DNA from: Krasilnikovozyma curviuscula | Lineage: Eukaryota; Basidiomycota; Tremellomycetes; Cystofilobasidiales; Mrakiaceae | Length of the DNA: 23,856 nt | Direction of reading: 5' to 3' | Assembly: GCA_014825775.1 (NCBI GenBank) | Contig: MVAQ01000286.1 | Span: forward strand, 1 to 23,856 | In this document: positions 1,177-23,469 of the stretch, one piece after another | How the letters are laid out: every line of letters starts with the position of its first letter | How positions within the stretch are numbered: position 1 is the stretch's first letter | Translations under genes and position numbers: made by a program | The notes under the pieces: generated by a model | What the model saw: only the letters and a program-made list of their open reading frames with translations | The model's database searches: none | Told to the model about the DNA's origin: nothing

Positions 1177-4100
1177 ATGGACGACCTCAATGACTTGGTT
1201 TGGTCTTCAGCACCCTCCAATGGGAACGCTTCGAAGCTTCAACCTCCCAGTGTAGCCTCTTCCACATCACGCACATCTTCCCCTTCAGCCTTCGACTTCC
1301 TGGCAAACTCCAATGGTGCCAATAGAAATTACTATGGCTCCTCACCAGCACCTACAGCGTCTGGTTCGACAAACACGAAGACTCAGTCTTCGACTGCTGC
1401 GGCAGGGATGTCCTCAGATGCGTTTTCCTCTCTGCTTTCCTTTTCATCGACACCTTCCGGTTCTTTATCAATGCAAGAAAAAGCCAAAATGTTGGCTGAA
1501 GAACAGCAGAGGAAGAAAGAGGAGGACGCCAACAGGTGGAACTGGGATTCGCTGGGAAGCAGTTCCAATCCAGCATCGTCATCGACAGTACAAAAGCAAT
1601 TGCCCAACAGAGAATTCGATGGTCTTCTTTCATTCGACTCCAAACCTCTCGCACCATCCTCAAAGCCAACTACACCTGTCCCATCACTCAGCAGCGTTCC
1701 GCGCGCCGCCCAACAGCAGACATCGTCCTTCGACTTCGACGATCTTCTGACATCGACACCAGCACAAACACAAAAGAAATTCTCTTTGCAGGAGAAAACT
1801 AGACAGCTCGCAGCTGAACAAGCTAAAAAGGTCAAGGAGGAAGATAATTCATGGGGAGACTTACTGAACGGATTGGGTTCCACTTCCATCAGCAACAAAC
1901 CCAAACCACCTCCCACAGATTCAATAATTACAGTTGCTTCGGAATCGCTGGGTTGGGATAGCTTGGTTGACCATCCGGTGCCGCCTCAGGCTCAAAAGAT
2001 CAGACCAACTTCCCCAGCAGCGTCTGCGCTTGCGCAGCCTTCATCCAACGTATCGAAAGCAAAGAATGCGCTCATCTGGGATGATGATGATGGTGCCGAT
2101 GGAGATGAGGAAGTCGGTGGTCTGCTTGGTATTGATGGTCGAAACGAACGTGATGAGTTTGACTTTGACTTTGGCGATAGAGAAGATCGCGAAACAGTCA
2201 GTAACTAAGCTTTCCAATTACGAATGAAACTTGGTTGACCCAACTTATCTCTCATGCAGTCCACACGTACCCCTTCTGTCAACTCTTCTGCTCCTTCCCG
2301 CCCCTCATCCTCAGTCGGATCACGATCAATCCAAAAGAGATCGTATTCGCCACCACCGCACATCCTGGGTCAAATTGTCATGATGGGATTCTCTCCCGCT
2401 CAAGCTAAACGAGCTCTTGCATCTACGGAGGGTGGACTGGATGTTCAGCGAGCTGTCGAGATCTTGCTATCTGAGCAAAGAGATGGTGCCTCCCCCGGAC
2501 CAGCGATTGGAGCTGAAGAGCGTGTAGAAGATCAACAAGCTGCTGAAGAAGCAGCAGCGGCTGAACGAAGAAGAAAAAGGCGCGCTGGTCCTTCTCGAAG
2601 TGCTATCAACGCTAGAGGTAACAACAGCGACTCTCAGCCTGCGTCTGGATCCATCACCCCTCAGCTGCCAATCAATATCCAAGAACAAGCTGATAAACTG
2701 ATGGTTCAAGCTGATCAACTTCGAGCTTCTGTTTTCAGTAAAGCGACTTCTCTTTGGTCTCAAGGGAAGAAGGCGTACGAGGAGCGACTAGCTGCAACTG
2801 GAGCAACAACGCCGAGAGAAAACGACGGGCGTCCCAAGTGGATGCTGTCCCAGGGTGCAGCAGATGATGATGAATTTTCTGAACACAGGGGTGAGGTGAC
2901 TGGAGGAGGCTTCAAAGATTCCGATGATGAAGGTGAGGTCAGAGCACCACAGCCTCGTAGACACCAACAAAACGGATTGGCACCTTCTTCGCCAGCTCGT
3001 TCGCCCCGAGAAGAAGTTCCACCTCAACAGCGGCCAAAATCTTCAGCCACAGAATCTAGGGACCTCTTGTTCTCCGATGGTCCAGGTCCAGTCCGCTCAT
3101 CTTCACCGGCACCAAAACTCCCAGCGTCTCGCACCAGCACCCCAGCACTTCGCTCCCCTCTTCCATCAACTTCTTCATATCCCTCACGGCCACCGCCACC
3201 TCGAAAAGTTGAACCCCTCGTTAAGCGTGACATAATCTCAGCTTCTGCCTCAGCCATCCAAAAATCTATCGCTCATCGAACCAAAGGAAACGAAGTCTTT
3301 AAACTTGGTCAATTCTCAGAAGCAGAATTAGCATATTCTGGTGCCATTGATTGTCTTCCTAAAGGCTGCCTTAACACGATACCTCCTCTCAACAACAGGG
3401 CTACGACGAGGCTGAAGACCGGTGAATACAGAGGCACTATCACCGACGCCACTGAAGTCATTCGAATTATTGGCCTGGCCTACAACCCGTCCAAAGAAGA
3501 ATCACTACCAGAAGAATATTCAGAAATCAACCTGGGTGAAGCGCTAGTTAAGGCTGTCTCCAAACGAGCCAGTGCGTATGAAATGTCGGAGAGATGGGTG
3601 AGCGCAAAGACGGATTGGGAGGCAGTTGGGAAGTTGGAGTTCAGCGTCAAGACGGCTGATAAAATTGCCGCTCTCGATGGACTGAGGAGGTGTAAGAAGA
3701 TGATTGATGGACCTTCCAAAGCTCCACCACCACCAAAAGCCAAACTAGTCTCGACCAAACCAGCTGCACCGTCTGAAGCCGTCAACAGACTCAAAGCGGC
3801 CAATGCAACTCAGGAGTCCGAAGACAACCTCCGTTCTTCACTTAAAGACTCGGTCGATTTCAAAATGAAGAACTGGTCAGCTGGGAAAGAAACTAACCTA
3901 AGAGCACTGATTGCGTCTTTGGATACTGTACTCTGGCCAGAGCTTGGCTGGACCAAGGTTGGGCTTCATGAGCTTGTCACAGATAAGCAGGTCAAGATCA
4001 AATACACAAGGGCTATCTCGAAGGTTCATCCAGATAAGATTGGTGTTAGTGGAGTCAGTGTTGAGAACAGGATGATTGCAGGCGGGGTTTTTGGTATTTT

Positions 4101-4191
4101 GAACGAAGGTGGGTTTATTGTTTTGACTGATCTGATTCTGTCGCTGACTCTTTTGCTCTCTGCCGTAGCTTGGTCCGCATCGCAACCTTAG
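1177..4191 (+). CDS. SWA2: Auxilin/Swa2-type J-domain co-chaperone (clathrin uncoating)
   Basis: Exons 1177-2196, 2260-4108 and 4169-4191 give 963 residues. Domain order matches fungal Swa2: a disordered clathrin-binding N-terminus, a UBA domain (about 374-412, starting HILGQIVMMGF), a charged and proline-rich linker, a TPR block (about 675-810) and a C-terminal J domain with HPDK at about 930. In the family the J domain recruits Hsp70 to strip clathrin from vesicles. The N-terminus has two exact clathrin boxes (LLSFD at 150-154, LLGID at 316-320), a near copy (LLSFS), and a repeated LQEK/MQEK...LA.EQ unit followed by WDSL or WGDLL. The 63-nt first intron is phase 0 (GTCAGT; the nearby GTAACT breaks the frame). 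The 60-nt last intron leaves a 23-nt final exon that restores the family's NEAW ending. The start at 1177 (MDDLNDLVW) is the first ATG of the frame; the frame's upstream extension to 1147 begins with GTG. Confidence 0.9.
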
Positions 4192-6613: not shown

Positions 6614-7401
6614 TTATACACCTAAAAGCTTTACAATCTCTGTGTGATCTCCAATCGCGGCCAACGCAGCAGCCGTGTTCCCATCCTCGTCCAAGATCGT
6701 TCGATCAGCGCCGTTGCTGAGTAGGAATTGAACTATCGGGTGGTGGCCTCTGTCTGCTGCAAGGTGAAGAGGTGTGTATGACTTGGGGGTGGTAAATTGT
6801 CAAAAGATCGTTAGAGCGTTCGTTCAACCGACAATGGATGAAAGGGACTCACGTATTGGTCCACTAAATTGACCCCTTCAGGGTGCTTCAACAAATACAC
6901 CTTAAGCCCTTCAATATCGTTATTCACCACGAACTGGTGTGGACCTCCTTCCTCATCCCCACCTGCATCCTCTGACAGCGCAATCACCGACACCGCCTCT
7001 CCCAAACCTTGACCAGCCGCACCTTTCCCCTTCGCATCTCTAGGCACATCAGGAGCATTCAGAAGTTCTTCAATGTCTCCGCCTTCTTCCTCTGCAGTTG
7101 ACGGTAAAGAGCCATCCCACCCACAGCTCTTGACAACATTGATGTATTCTTCCTCAGCACCTTCTTTAGTCAGCATCGGTTCTTTAGACAGGCTGTTCCA
7201 CGAATCCCATTTGGACCGCCCGGCGAAGTCAAACATTCCTGGGCGGGACGACGTGGGGGTCTTGGAGGAGGTGAGGATGAATTTGTAGAGCGAGTATAGA
7301 CGCAGTTGGCTAGCTTGAGGCAAGGTGCGTGCTCCTGGTAACGACGGTAGAATCTTGGAGGCATGGAGGAAGGTTTCGTTGGATAAAGGTTGAGATGACA
7401 T
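6614..7401 (-). CDS. Acyl-CoA-binding protein with C-terminal ankyrin repeats (ACBD6-like)
   Basis: Two exons, 7401-6853 and 6781-6614, encode 238 residues; the 71-nt intron is phase 0 (GTGAGT donor, CCCAAG acceptor). The N-terminal half (about 5-100) is an ACBP domain, with the acyl-CoA-binding core seen as LYSLYKFIL, RPGMFDFAGRSKWDSWNSL and EEEYINVV. An acidic Gly/Glu-rich linker follows. Residues about 165-238 are two ankyrin repeats (YTPLHLAADRGHHPIVQFLL, then GNTAAALAAIGDHTEIVKLL). ACBD6-type proteins bind long-chain acyl-CoAs in the cytosol and modulate lipid acylation. Divergent from ATG7. The start ATG at 7401 gives a compact N-terminus typical of the family. Confidence 0.9.
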
Positions 7402-7812: not shown

Positions 7813-10649
7813 ATGCCTCTTCTACAATTCACGCCTTTCACGTCGGCTGTATCGCCAACCTTCTTCCATGCGCTGACAAAACACAAACTCGACGTAGCCA
7901 TGCTGTCCGACGAATGGATCCCCCTGACAGGCAATTACTCGCTAGGTAGACGAATTGTCGATAGGGAGTCAGGACAAGAGGTAGGACTGGGCTGCTCGCT
8001 AGGCGTAGAGGAAGGAAGCTTCAAGTGAGTACTACCCATCGCAACGCTGAACAGGCGTGCAGTGAAATGTTTGGTTTCGCCGATTCGAATGGGGACCGTT
8101 TCAGTGGTAAATCGGAAGATCCAAAAGAATGTCGGCTATAATGATGGATGGATAGATCTCACATCTTTCTGGATTCTCGTTTTCGTTCTCCTTCTGCAGC
8201 CTTCCCTGTGTTTTGCACGCGCATCACTAATGCGTATCTTCACCTCTGCGCGTCAAGCTCATCCTCGTCTTCGAGTGCTCCCCCAGGCACGATACCTATG
8301 GCCGGTCTATTGAAGAACTACAACACAATCGAAGAGTTCCAAAAAGCAGATAAGACGGCGTTGTTCAATGACATGCTTCAGAAGGTCAGTCTTGCTCGAC
8401 ACCTTCTGAGTCTAACGGCAAAAGTGATTCTGATGTTCAGTCCGTTGTTGTCGATAGATCAGTAAAGAAAACACTATATCTGGATTGAACCCATTCCTTG
8501 TCCTCACATTTGCAGATCTCAAGAAGTATAAATACTATTATTGGTTCGCCTTCCCCTCCGTCATTTCGAAACCGTCTTGGGAGATATCAGATAATGGGTT
8601 TGAGAAGATGTCGAAGGATTCTGTGAGTGGTCCCGGCTTTGTGTTTGATCTGATTTGAGTACTGCTGATGAAAAGTTGTAAATATTTCAGGCTTTGAAAT
8701 GGAAGACTGCTGTTGCGACGACTGAAGCATTGAAGAAACTTCCTTTCTGTCTTGGAAAATTATCCAATGATGGAACACCTGAGATCTCCGACCTCTCAAC
8801 ATATGCGACGTTCTTCGAAGGCGTCGCAGAAGAGAACGTGGGTCCTATCGTGCTACCCTTTCCCGGTAGATTATCTCACTGTCTATGTTTTTATTCTTAA
8901 ACAGCGTCTGCTCATATTCCAAGATCCATCGTCTCTGCCCGAAAACCCAGGCTGGCCAGTCCGAAATGCACTCTTCTACCTCTCGACCAAATTCGCAGTC
9001 AAAAATATTACGTTAGTCTGCCTCAGAGAACGGCTCGAGCATTCAATGAGCGGCATGATTTATCATGGATCTGGAGAGGGCTACACGTTGGGCGATGAGG
9101 TGAAAGGTACTGGATGGGAGAAGAATGAGAAGGGCAAGTTGGGCCCCAAGATGGTTGACCTAGGAGGCGTGATGGATCCGTGAGTGTCATATCCGACCGC
9201 CTTCTTGAAACCTTGCCCAGAGCTCATTTCACTAGTTCTTTTATCTTAACAGTGCCCGGTTAGCATCACAAGCAGTTGACCTCAACCTTAAACTCATGCG
9301 CTGGCGAATCCTTCCGTCGCTCGACCTTGACTCCATCTCGAGTACCTCATGCCTTCTCCTTGGCTCAGGTACGCTCGGCTGCTACGTTGGACGCATGCTC
9401 ATGGGTTGGGGTGTGAGAAACATCACGTTTGTCGATTCGGGTAAAGTCAGCTTTAGTAATCCCGTTAGGCAACCGCTGTTTGAGTTTGCAGACTCGTTGA
9501 ATGGCGGGAAAGAAAAGGCGGTCGCAGCGGCAGACGCGATGAAGAGGATCTTTCCTGGTGTGGTAAGTCCTACGCTTTCACCTTTTTATCAAATGGCTTA
9601 GATTTGATTTGAGGATCTGACCGGATGAAGCTGTAGAACGCACAAGGTCACACCCTCTCCATTCCAATGCCAGGTCACCCAGTCTCTCCACAAGCACTCA
9701 CCGAAACAAAAGAATCAGTTAAAAAACTCGAAACTCTCGTTGCTTCTCATGACGTCATCTTTCTCCTCATGGACTCTCGAGAATCACGATGGCTGCCGAC
9801 GGTGTTGGGAGCAAGCATGCACAAGATTGTCATCAACGCCGCGCTGGGTTTCGACGGCTGGCTCGTTATGAGGCATGGAGCTGGCTGGAAGAAAGAAGAT
9901 GGACTGGAGCACAAGAGGCTGAGTTGCTACTTCTGCCAAGATAGTAATGCGCTTGGAAATGTGAGTGGCTTATAAATTGTTATGTCAACAGGCGGCTTAT
10001 TCCCATTTTCTCTATCCAATCAGTCTCTGAATGATCGAACGTTGGATCAGATGTGTACAGTTTCACGACCTGGACTAGCACCCGTTGCTTCTGCTACTGC
10101 CGTTGAGCTACTAGTCGCCTTACTCACTCATCCTCTACGGTGAGCATTTTTTGTTTGACCTAAAGATCCTTCCACCAATATAATTAAATATTTGCTGTAC
10201 TCTAGTGCGTCCGCTCCTGCCGACATGCCAGAAAAGGAAGAAGTCACCCGCGGTTCACCCCTGGGGTAAGTTAGAGAATCGGTTTCTTGCTCTCTGCACT
10301 GGAAACAACCTAAATGGCATTTGTTTCATAGAATGGTCCCACATCAACTTCGTGGTAGTCTAGCGTCTTTCAACAACCTGGTTCTGAACGGTGAAGCTTT
10401 CGGAATGTGTACCGCGTGTAGTCCCAAGGTCAGTTCCCCACTGATCGCTCTTTGAATAGTCATGACACTTGCTCACGCTAGGTTTTTGCTCAGATCTTAG
10501 AAGAGTACCAATCCAAGGGTTTTGAGATGCTGCTAAGAGCATTCAACGAACCTGATTATCTACCCAAGCTGACCGGGTTGGATCAGCTGAATAAGGAGAC
10601 GGAGGGGTTGATGGAGGAGATGGAAGAAGACTGGGACGAGGAGGACTAG
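7813..10649 (+). CDS. ATG7: Atg7, E1-like activating enzyme of autophagy
   Basis: Preferred exons: 7813-8024, 8258-8384, 8458-8622, 8691-8837, 8905-9179, 9253-9562, 9637-9960, 10024-10139, 10206-10265, 10332-10428, 10482-10649. They give 666 residues. Atg7 activates the ubiquitin-like Atg8 and Atg12 with ATP and passes them to Atg3 and Atg10. The N-terminal domain has the family signatures [35 protein letters not shown] and [12 protein letters not shown]. The nucleotide-binding loop GSGTLG is at 346-351, and MPGHP and [13 protein letters not shown] follow. The catalytic cysteine is Cys531 in [13 protein letters not shown]. The C-terminus (CTACSPK..., ending in acidic EEDWDEED) fits the Atg3/Atg8-binding tail. 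The first intron is uncertain: one 233-nt intron (8025-8257) or two (8025-8062 and 8107-8199) with an extra 44-nt exon. Both are in frame; the second gives 700 residues. Confidence 0.93.
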
Positions 10650-13152: not shown

Positions 13153-16100
13153 ATGATTCAATCCTCTATAGCTATGTCAACCAACGGAGAAGTTTTATAC
13201 AGCCCATCGTGGGTCCTACGAAGCTCCAGCTTCAAGGGTGCCCCTTCAGCTAATGAAGCTTCAGCACCTGCTTGGCCCAGCGTCGCTCCAGCGGCAGCTA
13301 CACATCCAGCCTCACCAATATCCTACTCATCCGTCACGTATACAAATGGTGTGAATAGTGTAGGAAACGGTGCAGGAAATGGAGGTCACTTTGAAGCTGT
13401 GGAGGATCCCTCGAAGCCGTTCAGATACTCGAGAGAGTTCATGATGAGTCTATGGGATCCACGAAAGGTCGCTGAGTTGCCTATCGAATTCGAGAGATGG
13501 GAGGTGGTTACTACTGAGACTGCCTCTCAACCTCTGGGCCTGCAAGAGCTGTCTGAAGCTGAAAAGAAGGTTCGTCTCATCATTTTTTTTTATAACCTGG
13601 AAAAAAAGGTGTCGCCATGTTGAATAGGCTCCCTTTCTTTGAGGACTATAGGCTTTCTCGGGCCCTTTCAATCCAGAAAGACCAGAGCGTGTCACTCGTA
13701 ACTCCAGCACCAACGACCTTTCAGTCAACCCGCCTCGGCGCAACAACTCTGGTCGTCCTTTGGCATCCTCAGGTGTTACTGCTGGAGGACCTAACTCCCC
13801 AAGGAACGAACGGTTCGGTGGTATTCAAAACGGTGCTCTTGGCGGTTTGGGCAGTGGAGGTATTATTGGAGGCGCCTTGGGCGGTTTGGGTACCAACAGA
13901 AGAAAGAAAGAAGACACCTCGAACGGTGGCGGTACGTTTCTGTTCTCTTCCCTTTCAGATGGTTACTATAAGCTGACTTCTTGAGTATGGCTGAAATCAC
14001 GGTAGATGTCTCAGCTCATGCTCCCTTGCCCCCCTCCTCTGGCAACAGTTGGAGACCCAAGACAAGAGATCCCTCCACTCTTGAAACCCCTCCCAGCTAT
14101 ACTGGACGTGAGCGCTCCACTCTAAATCGAAAGGAAGAGGACTCACCCTCTGTCGAGAGGAGATGGAGAGAACCAGCTTTTCCACCGAGAACAAGCAGCG
14201 GTGACGATGTCGCTGAAGAGACTAGTGTAGGCGGTGGGTCAATCTTGAACTCGGCTGCTAGACCGGGTGGATGGAGAGACAGAGAAAAGGTCAAGAGCAG
14301 CATCAAGGCTGAAAGTGATGCGGCTGCGCTGGGAGGGTGGTCCAGTGTCACATCAAAGAACTCTGATTCTGAGTGGAAGGTGAGTTTTGATCTTCTCACC
14401 ACGAGAATGACCGTTAACCTCTATCTGACGCTTTATCTCTCCCAATTCAAGCGCAATGGAAAATCTACAAGAGCTTCTGTTGAACCTGAAGCAGCCACTG
14501 GTTCCAACGCTAACCAGAATACATTCGCTGCTTTCACTGAGCCTCCAGAACCGGCACCAAAAGAGGAGGTTACTGTATCAGCTGAGCCAGTTTCTTCTAC
14601 CGAGAGTACTCCTGCTGTTGCTTGCAAGTGGAACTATCAAGACCACAGCGGCAATCTTCAAGGTGAGTCAGATCTTTCCGCCCTTCCCGAACCAACATCT
14701 TGCTGACCCTACGTCCCATTTCAGGTCCCTTCGAGGCCCAAGAGATGCAGAACTGGTTTATGGCGTCATATTTTCCCGATAGCTTGCTTGTGAAGCGTGT
14801 TCAAGATACCGTGTTCGAGACTGTTGCAACTCTGAAGCTCCTCTATCCAGGTGACAACATGTTCCTCAATGCTTCAGCCGCCCCTGCTCCACCACCACCT
14901 GCCCCAGCTGCTCCGATTGCCAACCTTTTCCACAACATCTCTAGAGGCTCTACTCCAGCTCCGTACAGTGGCATCAGCTCCAGAGTCGTTTCTTCTTCCA
15001 GTGCTGTTGGATCGCCAGCCGTCAGCGAGCGTCAAGTCAAGCAACCCACATTCCAAGAGAACGCAATCCAGTCTCCATCTCTCAGCCATGCGAATAGTGC
15101 TTGGTCATCTCAACAGCATCAACAACAACAACAACATAGCGATTACGGCTACAGCAACGGTGGTGACGCTCAACCTGGTTACACTCGTTCTGCCCCCATC
15201 GCTCAGTTCCAACAGCAACAGAACGTCTCTGCCTGGGGTCAAGTATCCCCACAACCGCAGCAACAACAGCAGCCTCAATACCAACAACAGTTCGCCCAGA
15301 GTCCTTACAGAGCTGCTGCTCCTGCTACTGCTGGAACTCCATGGTCTCAGTACGATCCACAACAACCCCACCCACAACATTACCAGCAGCAACATCAGCA
15401 ACCACAACAACATCAGGAAATTCAACAACCTGTTTACAACGGGCATCAGTTCCAGCAATGGAACCAAGCTCCGGTTGGACAAGTCCCTATCCAAAACCAA
15501 TCCCAAGGTCATATCCCACAACAGCAGGAATACTTCCAGCATATGCAGATGCAACAGCAGCAGCCAGAACACCAAGCTTATCAACAAACGCAATGGCCTC
15601 AGCAGCAATCACAGCTGCAAGCTCCCCTTCAATCATACGTGTCTCCTCCAGCTCCGATTCAAGAGACTCTTCCTCCAGTTACTGAGCCTGAATCAGCCAT
15701 ACAACAAGAGTTGGAGTATGTTGAAGCTCCTGCCGTAGAGGAGCCCGTCCCAGTTCCAGCTACCGCTCCTGTCGATGAGACCACCCGCCTCAGAGAAACT
15801 TTGTCATCGCTCGAAATCGCCAACACTGAGGCTCCTCCACCCGTCAAGGCCACCCGCGCTACTCAAGATGAAAGTATTCCAGTGGTTGATCCAACTCCAG
15901 TCGTCTCTCCCGTCATCGAGGGGGTCCAAGTTCCCGTTGCCGCTCCTTCACCACCAGTCGCGACTCCAGCCCCATGGCTGGCCACAGAAGAAACCAAAAA
16001 GCCAGCTGGGCCATCACTTCGTGAGATTCAAGAAGCTGAACAAAAGCGTGTTGCTGCTGCCAAAGCTGCTTCTCGTCCGCCTCCCTCTGCCGCTACCTCA

Positions 16101-17183
16101 GCCCCTGCTTCTCCAGGCACCCCAGTCGAGAAGGTCGCCTCCTGGGGTCTTGCTTCTTCGAAGCCAGCTTTGGCTCCAGTTGCAGCTGCTCCGCCTCTAT
16201 CCACTTCTCCTGCACCAGCTGTCTGGGGTGCTGGAGGTCAGGCCATGAAGTTGACTTTGAAGCAGATTCAAGAACAGGAAGAGAAGGCAAGAATTGCTGA
16301 TGCACAAGTTAAAGCTCAAAAGATGGCTTTGACTTCAGGCGCTGGTGCTAAGAGAGCTTATGCTGATTCAGCTGCTGTAAGTCGTAACCTCGATTTTTTG
16401 TGGCTGCCGCCATGTTGTAACTAACGCGGATTTCTCACTATAGGTTTCCGCCGCTGCTTCATCTGCTGGTGCCTGGTCCACCGTTGGAGCCAGTGGCAAA
16501 GCTGTCCCAACTCCAGCTGTTTCCACTGTTCCAGGAGCTGTTGCTCGTCCAGCATCCCTCCCACCAAAGCCAGTCACCGCTTTACCAACATCAGTCCCTG
16601 CCAAACCTATTACTTCCATCATCACTTCTGTCAAACCTGCTACCGTTGGTGTCGATGAGAATGGAAACCCTCTCCCAAGTGCTGAGTTCATTACCTGGAC
16701 CAAAACTGCTTTGAAAGGCATCACCGGAATCAACAGTAGGTTACCCTTTTTCACTTGTCAGGTTCGCTTACTTACTGACTCAACCCTTTCTCATCTTCGC
16801 ATTTGCAGTTGATGAGTTTATCAAGATGCTTCTTGACTTTCCACTTGAACCTACTCCATCCATCTTGGAGACCATCTCCGATATCGTGTATGCCTACAGC
16901 TCGACCTTGGACGGCAAACGTTTCGCACAAGAGTTCACCAAGAGAAGAAAAGCCGATGTCAAGATCAGCAAAGAGATTTTGAAGACTCAAGGTCCTTCTG
17001 CTGCTCCTGTGCCACTCCGAATGGCAGACAGTAAGTCATCGTTGTGTTACAAGTACGAAGAGCTACGCTGATAACTTCTTCGCTGCAATTTTCAACTTTA
17101 CAGTTGTCAAAGCTCAACCACCCAAGGTTGCCAATGATTTTGGCGCCTTCAAGGTTGTCAAGAAGAAGGGCAAGAAGAACTAA
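13153..17183 (+). CDS. GYF-domain protein of the GIGYF/Smy2/Syh1 type
   Basis: Exons 13153-13569, 13652-13931, 14015-14379, 14452-14662, 14725-16376, 16444-16735, 16809-17030 and 17104-17183 encode 1172 residues; a second in-frame ATG at 13174 would give 1165. The GYF domain (about 411-465) reads KWNYQDHSGNLQGPFEAQEM then NWFMASYFPDSLLVKR, the expected W-Y...GPF...W aromatic pocket that binds proline-rich ligands. Near residue 90, FRYSREFMM resembles the 4EHP/eIF4E-binding motif of animal GIGYF proteins, and LSEAEKKAFSGPFN parallels the segment that follows it. A long Gln-rich stretch (about 550-730) is likely disordered, followed by Ala/Pro repeats. The conserved C-terminal block has FITWTKTALKGITGIN, DEFIKMLLDFPLEP and LDGKRFAQEFTKRRKADVK and ends in a basic tail. 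Relatives repress translation and trigger decay of mRNAs with stalled ribosomes. The function here is inferred from architecture. Confidence 0.88.
15108..15630 (+). repeat. CAA/CAG-rich tract encoding poly-Gln region
   Basis: Dense CAA/CAG codons within the long fifth exon of the GYF-protein gene, including a run of CAACAACAACAACAAC around 15119. They encode interrupted glutamine runs of up to five residues mixed with His, Pro and Tyr. Such tracts vary in length and often drive condensate formation. Confidence 0.8.
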
Positions 17184-22260: not shown

Positions 22261-23469
22261 TTAGTTGACTGGGTCGCGGACAAACAGATGGTAAGTTTAC
22301 CGGTCGCAGCACATAAGGGAAACGAAGAGAAAGATTTACTCGGCTTGATCTTAAAGTGAAGAGCAATAAGGGAGAAGATTAAGCACTGCGGAAGTGACCA
22401 CGCATGTCAGTCACACCGAATTGGGACAGCAAGTGAAGAGAGGTGATTGATTTACCTTGAGATCCTGGACGAGATAGTAGAACACACGAAGACCTTCAGG
22501 ATCATCTGAATCTTGAACATCAACCAACGAACCAATCTTGGCAGTCTGTACCCAAACAAAGTAAGAGGTAAGTGCAGCTCAAGCTCCAACGCTAAACCAC
22601 CACAAGCTCTGCCCAACAAAGATTTCACCCTGACATACCTCAAACGAAATGTGTTCGTCTCCCAATCGAATTTCCAGCTCCTGCTTGCCGACAATATCTT
22701 TTTTAGGCCATTTGGCGTCGTCTTCTTTTGTAATGTCAGACGAGGCGATGATTTTCTTAAGCTCAGCTGTCAGGAGGGGACCGATGTACACTATAGGCGA
22801 TTCATTGAAGTGAGTGAGGATGAACATAGATGATGCATTGAAGGGAAGAGGTCGGTGAGGTCGGGCGATACAATGAGGTTGGACAAGTGGAACCGTAGGT
22901 AGAGAAGACAATCAGAAAGGAGCAGAAGGAAAGTCGTATTAGTAAATGACACGTCCCGAAGAGTCCTTCATTCATTATAAAGAGAGGTCCAGGGCCAGAA
23001 ACGTACTTTCTTTCTTGATCAAAGAGTCATTTCGGTAATTCGAGTTGTTGGCGTATCTCAACCTTCCAGCAGAGTATTCGAACTCCAGAAATTCGTGTCC
23101 GTGTTTACCCTGGTGACCAGTACTGTTGGCAGAATGAGTAGGAAGAGGTACAGTTGAGAAAGGAGAGGTTTAGACAGGTAGAATTCGATCCGCATAGCCA
23201 GATTAGTTTTGAGGAAAGGACAAAGGAACAAGAGAAAACAACCAGGAAAAGTTGGTCAGCATTATCCTTAAAGCACTTTTAGAGATTTGAGGGTGAAAGA
23301 CGCACTAATATCTGCAAGGTGTGACGAGAGAAAGACAATCAGACGCAGGGTAGAGGAATCCAACAGAAATATAAGTCAGCCATCCTTTCTTTCCTACAGG
23401 CATGGCCATCTAGGACGTAGTTACTCACCTGAGGTAAAATGGATCCGCTTTCTGTTCTGCTGTAGCCAT
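22261..23469 (-). CDS. mago: Mago nashi, exon-junction-complex core protein
   Basis: Seven exons (high to low): 23469-23429 (41 nt), 23311-23306 (6 nt), 23122-23007, 22790-22639, 22545-22456, 22385-22340, 22268-22261 (8 nt). They give 152 residues, close to the usual length of about 146-150. Mago pairs with Y14 and locks eIF4A3 on spliced mRNA upstream of exon junctions, affecting export, localisation and decay. Family blocks seen: [98 protein letters not shown] and [14 protein letters not shown]. Introns are 117, 183, 216, 93, 70 and 71 nt, so the first three are far longer than those elsewhere in this window. The 6-nt exon is needed for the invariant RYY. The last exon holds only the end of one codon, Asn and the stop. 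Confidence 0.93.
23306..23311 (-). other. mago: 6-nt microexon in mago
   Basis: On the minus strand ATATTA lies between a CTTGCAG acceptor and a GTGCGT donor. It joins ...CTCAG upstream to TACTGG downstream, spelling Arg-Tyr-Tyr-Thr. Without it the protein would read Ser-Thr and lose the conserved RYY. Phase 2 on both sides. Confidence 0.85.

Follow-up and report, generated by a model that had tools for sequence, protein, structure and literature searches.

Microexons of the size of 6 nt are already known, both from plants and from the P450 genes of a basidiomycete (PMC8831610, PMC1184071). Plant microexons, which range from 1 to 15 nt and include the 1-nt exons of APC11 and VPS55, are conserved coding exons located between two introns, and they are usually missed by annotation, which results in wrong proteins (PMC8831610). 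It has been argued that these exons are unable to hold spliceosomes on both flanking introns at the same time, so that the introns would compete and be spliced in sequence, one of them later than the other (PMC8831610). In the basidiomycete Phanerochaete chrysosporium, the shortest exon reported for the P450 genes is 6 bp (PMC1184071), and in the ascomycete Trichoderma virens a functional microexon has been described in the gene of the transcription factor Xlr2, where it takes part in a regulated two-isoform switch (PMC11121469). In HeLa reporters, the first splicing step deposits an exon junction complex that represses a 5' splice site located 6 nt past the junction; bypassing this step or depleting eIF4A3 leads to inclusion of a 6-nt microexon. 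On the genome-wide scale, the eIF4A3 knock-down affected 5.3 percent of 545 putative cryptic microexons (PMC6224609).

The 6-nt exon described here, in the mago nashi (mago) gene of the basidiomycete Krasilnikovozyma curviuscula, shares with plant microexons its tiny size, its coding character, its position between two introns and, probably, its conservation and its frequent absence from annotations, and we propose for it the same sequential splicing. In contrast, the plant exons belong to other genes, the words "mago" and "fungi" being absent from the main text of that study, and they are backed by RNA-seq and RT-PCR (PMC8831610), whereas the mago microexon is predicted from the sequence. The P450 microexons also come from a basidiomycete, but they are mostly predicted models in a divergent multigene family, and the available text of that report does not mention deep conservation of one particular exon (PMC1184071). 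Xlr2 offers a switch between two isoforms, whereas inclusion seems to be required in mago. The human complex-repressed microexons are similar in that a 5' splice site follows an exon-exon junction at a distance of 6 nt; however, they are cryptic, form the start of a longer exon and are normally suppressed (PMC6224609), whereas that of mago stands between two introns. No earlier report of a mago microexon was found in the literature searched, most subscription journals lying outside this search.

The window, i.e. the whole stretch of 23,856 nt that was analysed, carries on its minus strand the single PF02792 locus found in the 22.4-Mb genome. The pieces of this locus score 101.8 and 58.3 bits, both above the curated cut-off of 27 bits, which places the gene in the Mago nashi family. 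The gene model comprises seven coding exons and 152 residues, and its closest relative among the best 120 of 3,870 homologues is found in Mrakia frigida, a tremellomycete of the Cystofilobasidiales (87% identity over 98% of the query). The coding part of exon 1 (23429..23469, from ATG to CTCAG, with the 5' UTR undefined) is followed by intron 1 (23312..23428, 117 nt, CAG/GTGAGT ... CTTGCAG/A), by the microexon ATATTA (23306..23311) and by intron 2 (23123..23305, 183 nt, TTA/GTGCGT ... CCAACAG/T). Branch-like motifs, which are pattern matches only, are present in intron 1 (CTGAC at 23379-23375 and CTGAT at 23342-23338) and in intron 2 (CTAAT at 23206-23202 and CTCAT at 23138-23134). Exon 3 (23007..23122) starts at base 23122 and reads TACTGGTCACC, opening with TACTGG. 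Exon 4 (22639..22790) was placed by homology, with which the trained gene finder conflicts at intron 3, where it chose another acceptor. Exon 5 (22456..22545) and exon 6 (22340..22385) follow, and exon 7 (22261..22268) contributes the 8 coding nt to the stop, the protein ending with FKIKPIN. The least certain part of the model is intron 6, just before exon 7, as its splice sites are weak (about the 7th percentile).

Re-reading of the minus strand confirmed the coordinates, the splice sites and the phase 2 on both sides that a preliminary description of this DNA had given for the microexon. The six bases complete an arginine codon, code for a tyrosine and start a second tyrosine codon. Translation likewise bears out the statement that direct joining of exon 1 to exon 3 loses Arg-Tyr-Tyr (RYY) and that ATATTA restores it: the protein reads FYLRYYTGH with the microexon and FYLSTGH without it, a net gain of two residues (S to RYY). 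RYY is present in all five solved Mago chains with alignments shown (seven distinct sequences were found) and in 95 of the best 120 of 3,870 homologues, according to a crude text test that undercounts, since P0045 and P0048 fail it wrongly although both have RYY. An AlphaFold2 prediction for the Mrakia relative shows residues 9-18 (YLRYYTGHMG) as the first strand; the run used 19 aligned sequences, and the mean pLDDT was 80.2 for the best model, against 46 to 68 for the remaining four. According to this predicted structure, the six bases code for the middle of the first beta-strand of Mago.

The consequences of the other splicing outcomes can be read from the codons. An immediate stop follows from retention of either intron, as AGG TGA for intron 1 and as TAT TAG, at the exon border, for intron 2, whereas skipping of the microexon keeps the reading frame. 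The border TAG is forced by the codons and the phase and is therefore no evidence of selection.

We asked how often such an exon arises by chance in the 306-nt gap between exons 1 and 3. Dinucleotide shuffling of the gap produced the pattern AG[AG]TA[CT]TAGT in 22 of 50,000 trials, and in none of 50,000 when the splice-site context was added; an exon of any length restoring RYYTGH was found in 4 of 3,000 shuffles. The splice sites were scored against 258 predicted introns, from which those of the window minus strand were left out. The donor of intron 1 is strong (11.1 bits, 94th percentile). The acceptor of the microexon, CTTGCAG, scores 5.5 bits (28th percentile) and its donor, GTGCGT, 6.5 bits (21st percentile), both ordinary values; the acceptor of intron 2, CCAACAG, also scores 5.5 bits (28th percentile). 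Within the gap, the acceptor and the donor of the microexon are the best available, the next best scoring 2.4 and 2.5 bits. ATATTA is a short coding stretch, below the limit of 15 nt for microexons, with usable splice sites on both sides. The lengths of introns 1 and 2 fall in the 71st and 81st percentiles. A strict motif of branch site and acceptor following donor hexamers gave no usable signal (4/61 for GTGCGT, against 0.065 for GT hexamers overall). The genome sample of 447,712 strand-bases contains 5 AG-N6-GT pairs with such scores, the mago site included, and for each spacing from 3 to 15 nt between 1 and 10 AG/GT pairs score comparably. As comparable pairs occur elsewhere, it is the coding match, rather than the sites by themselves, that carries the case. 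Another strong AG-N6-GT site was rejected, its translation reading as the end of an ordinary transporter exon. The exon was also considered as a recursively spliced RS-exon, which on joining to the upstream exon would restore a 5' splice site at the junction; this was rejected, because the exon starts with ATATTA and not with GT.

Enumeration of the ways to splice this region gave 646 models, 14 of which remain open throughout. Among these 14, the 6-nt model has the best score against a protein profile (296.8 bits), followed by two models at 279.5 bits; the 19 relatives behind this profile were picked with RYY, so that it favours RYY, which is not the case for the splice-site sum. By the latter, the 6-nt model ranks first among all 646 models (28.6 bits), ahead of a model that is not open (25.9 bits), and the best other open model reaches 17.0 bits. 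Direct joining of exon 1 to exon 3, which would yield a Mago carrying S instead of RYY, is one of the open models, with 278.7 bits and good outer sites (16.6 bits). It is also what the gene finder, trained on 21 stretches of the genome (223,856 bases), predicts, with one intron running from 23428 to 23123, and 14 public proteins resemble the form that it yields. Nevertheless, we consider it very unlikely that no microexon is used. RYY is retained by 77 of the 101 Mago models from named basidiomycetes, by 120 of the 121 from ascomycetes and by all 15 from other fungi, as well as by the five solved chains with alignments shown; both forms occur within one genus or even one species, which points to annotation error; and the shuffles give a low probability that the exact exon lies in the gap by chance. 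The skip made by the gene finder seems to be an error that it has in common with public annotations. The preliminary description read the locus as a 6-nt coding microexon, and this reading is by far the one best supported by the shuffles, the splice sites and the ranking of the 646 models, with the protein models of relatives pointing independently to the same exon. We hold with high confidence, from these sequence comparisons, that the microexon is real.

Taken as a whole, a genuine 6-nt spliceosomal microexon that is old, that is spliced sequentially and whose inclusion is productive is, in our judgement, a highly probable explanation. Beyond the reality of the exon, we infer the order of splicing, its use in the cell and its age. 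The two flanking introns would be removed one after the other, because the acceptor of intron 1 and the donor of intron 2 are 6 nt apart and their joint occupancy is unlikely. Inclusion would be the productive outcome, since retention of either intron leads to a stop and skipping to an in-frame loss of two residues, and the need for the conserved RYY suggests that inclusion is constitutive. The preliminary description had regarded the exon as too small for normal exon definition. This is probably not the main constraint: the 262 introns predicted by the trained gene finder in the sampled genome have a median length of 79 nt, which suggests intron definition, and with short introns a tiny exon would not need to be recognised as a unit. 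The main difficulty is probably the distance of 6 nt between the intron-1 acceptor and the intron-2 donor. The mago microexon would provide a natural test of how the spliceosome includes a 6-nt exon with two splice sites that can scarcely be bound at the same time, and errors in this gene should be costly.

With regard to relatives, 250 proteins were compared: 101 from named basidiomycetes, 121 from ascomycetes, 15 from other fungi and 13 unnamed. The 101 named basidiomycete models comprise 77 full models, 13 exact two-residue skips and 11 that are otherwise broken at this point, and the unnamed ones comprise 8 full and 5 otherwise broken models. By a text test demanding S or R at the joint, exact skips amount to 3/26 in Agaricomycetes, 1/3 in Dacrymycetes, 5/19 in Tremellomycetes and 4/39 in Ustilaginomycotina, and to 0/12 in Pucciniomycotina, 0/2 in Wallemiomycetes, 1/121 in Ascomycota and 0/15 in other fungi. 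A second search, with a profile of ten skip forms, added Malassezia japonica, Naganishia cerealis, Malassezia cuniculi and Sporothrix thermara; as this profile favours skip forms, the combined counts are not rates. Pairwise alignment of the best 120 of 3,870 homologues gave exactly two residues deleted within residues 13-16 in 10 of the 120 and other deletions starting at residues 12-17 in four more, whereas only 3 internal deletions of any length were found from residue 22 to the end; insertions were found both at the skip point and elsewhere. Ten skips among the 120 homologues listed, which include some non-basidiomycetes and unnamed rows, against one among the 120 ascomycetes listed gives a Fisher p of 0.01, relatedness being ignored. 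A search for Mago-coding DNA in viral and prokaryote contigs found none.

The residue at the joint was S (5) or R (9) in all 14 skips defined by alignment, where no condition was set on this residue. S fits a phase-2 joint of AG with a pyrimidine. R is ambiguous, as it fits CG joined in the same way but also a simple loss of YY. Full, skipped and truncated models (P0018, P0063 and P0079, respectively) are all found in Tilletia horrida, and full and skipped models are both present in each of the genera Kwoniella, Naganishia, Malassezia, Mycena and Leucoagaricus. Two further models appear to run past the end of exon 1: P0097 (Scleroderma) reads FYLRYGPHLLFSTGH and P0052 (Antrodiella) reads FYLRYDFSYYTGH. 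Back-translation suggests that in both, exon 1 continues into an intron-like GTAYGG or GTAYGA, which would mean that RYY is not fused to exon 1 in these species. In the Mago of Rhizoctonia solani (P0001), the N-terminal stretch occurs twice in tandem, which may be another faulty gene model at this problematic point.

Agaricomycotina and Ustilaginomycotina show the same two-residue loss, which suggests that the exon is probably old, and we have fair confidence that it is both old and widely mis-annotated. It could also be real in K. curviuscula without being ancient, the other skips being annotation errors of various kinds, such as the use of a wrong GTAYTA donor with RYY located in exon 1. The relatives are represented here by protein models, all 12 models of Pucciniomycotina and both of Wallemiomycetes are full, and the ascomycete Sporothrix thermara is skipped as well. 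However, the errors cluster at one point and have one size, and the run-on sequences of P0097 and P0052 suggest that RYY is separate from exon 1 in those two. We regard an exon that is not ancient as fairly unlikely. The Sporothrix thermara model (P0128) shows the same two-residue loss, FYLRSGHSG, whereas its close Sporothrix relatives among those listed have the full form; the exon may have arisen before Basidiomycota, or this model may be wrong for another reason. The case suggests that public Mago proteins of several basidiomycete classes are wrong at one point and that fungal annotation misses such exons systematically, as in plants.

The gene of Mago, a core subunit of the exon junction complex, carries a geometry that is repressed by this complex in human cells, and self-regulation is therefore open to a direct test. 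The complex is usually deposited 20-24 nt upstream of a junction (PMC8476143); by this rule, removal of intron 1 would place it at 23448..23452 on exon 1, which has at least 41 nt, sufficient for its footprint. The donor of intron 2 would then lie 6 nt from the junction, as in the HeLa reporter and within the 15 nt set for complex-repressed microexons (PMC6224609). The complex could hinder this donor, and high levels of it would lead to retention of intron 2, with its immediate TAG, or to skipping, mago thereby limiting its own output. The genome contains likely orthologues of Y14 (71 percent over residues 69-116) and eIF4A3 (four pieces with 75-95 percent on one contig), and Ustilago maydis is reported to have orthologues of the exon junction complex (PMC12511879). 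In contrast, the HeLa basis is human, its 6-nt reporter is one construct, and only 5.3 percent of the putative cryptic microexons were released by the knock-down (PMC6224609). In addition, the border TAG is no sign of selection, removal of intron 2 first would avoid any conflict with the complex, and profiles for Btz and UPF3, like that for Mago-bind, had no match in the genome in a search run without a positive control. A profile for U1 RNA, likewise without a positive control, gave no match either, whereas that for cwf21 did. That the exon is real but regulated in this manner is unlikely in our view. Basidiomycetes might have kept an ancient 6-nt exon as a built-in sensor by which the complex sets its own level, an idea we regard as improbable. 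Intron 2 may be removed first, the fungal complex may not repress such sites, or, an unlikely option, mago may be braked by its own product. If the last were true, the mago microexon would let the complex hinder the second splicing step of the mRNA of its own subunit.

Outside mago, an Rfam search of the window gave no matches. The plus strand carries a piece with a UBA domain (2254-4191), a ThiF-family (E1-like) protein in pieces split by introns (9296-9975) and a piece with a GYF domain from a glutamine-rich protein (14700-16424), and the minus strand carries a piece with an acyl-CoA-binding domain (6811-7401).
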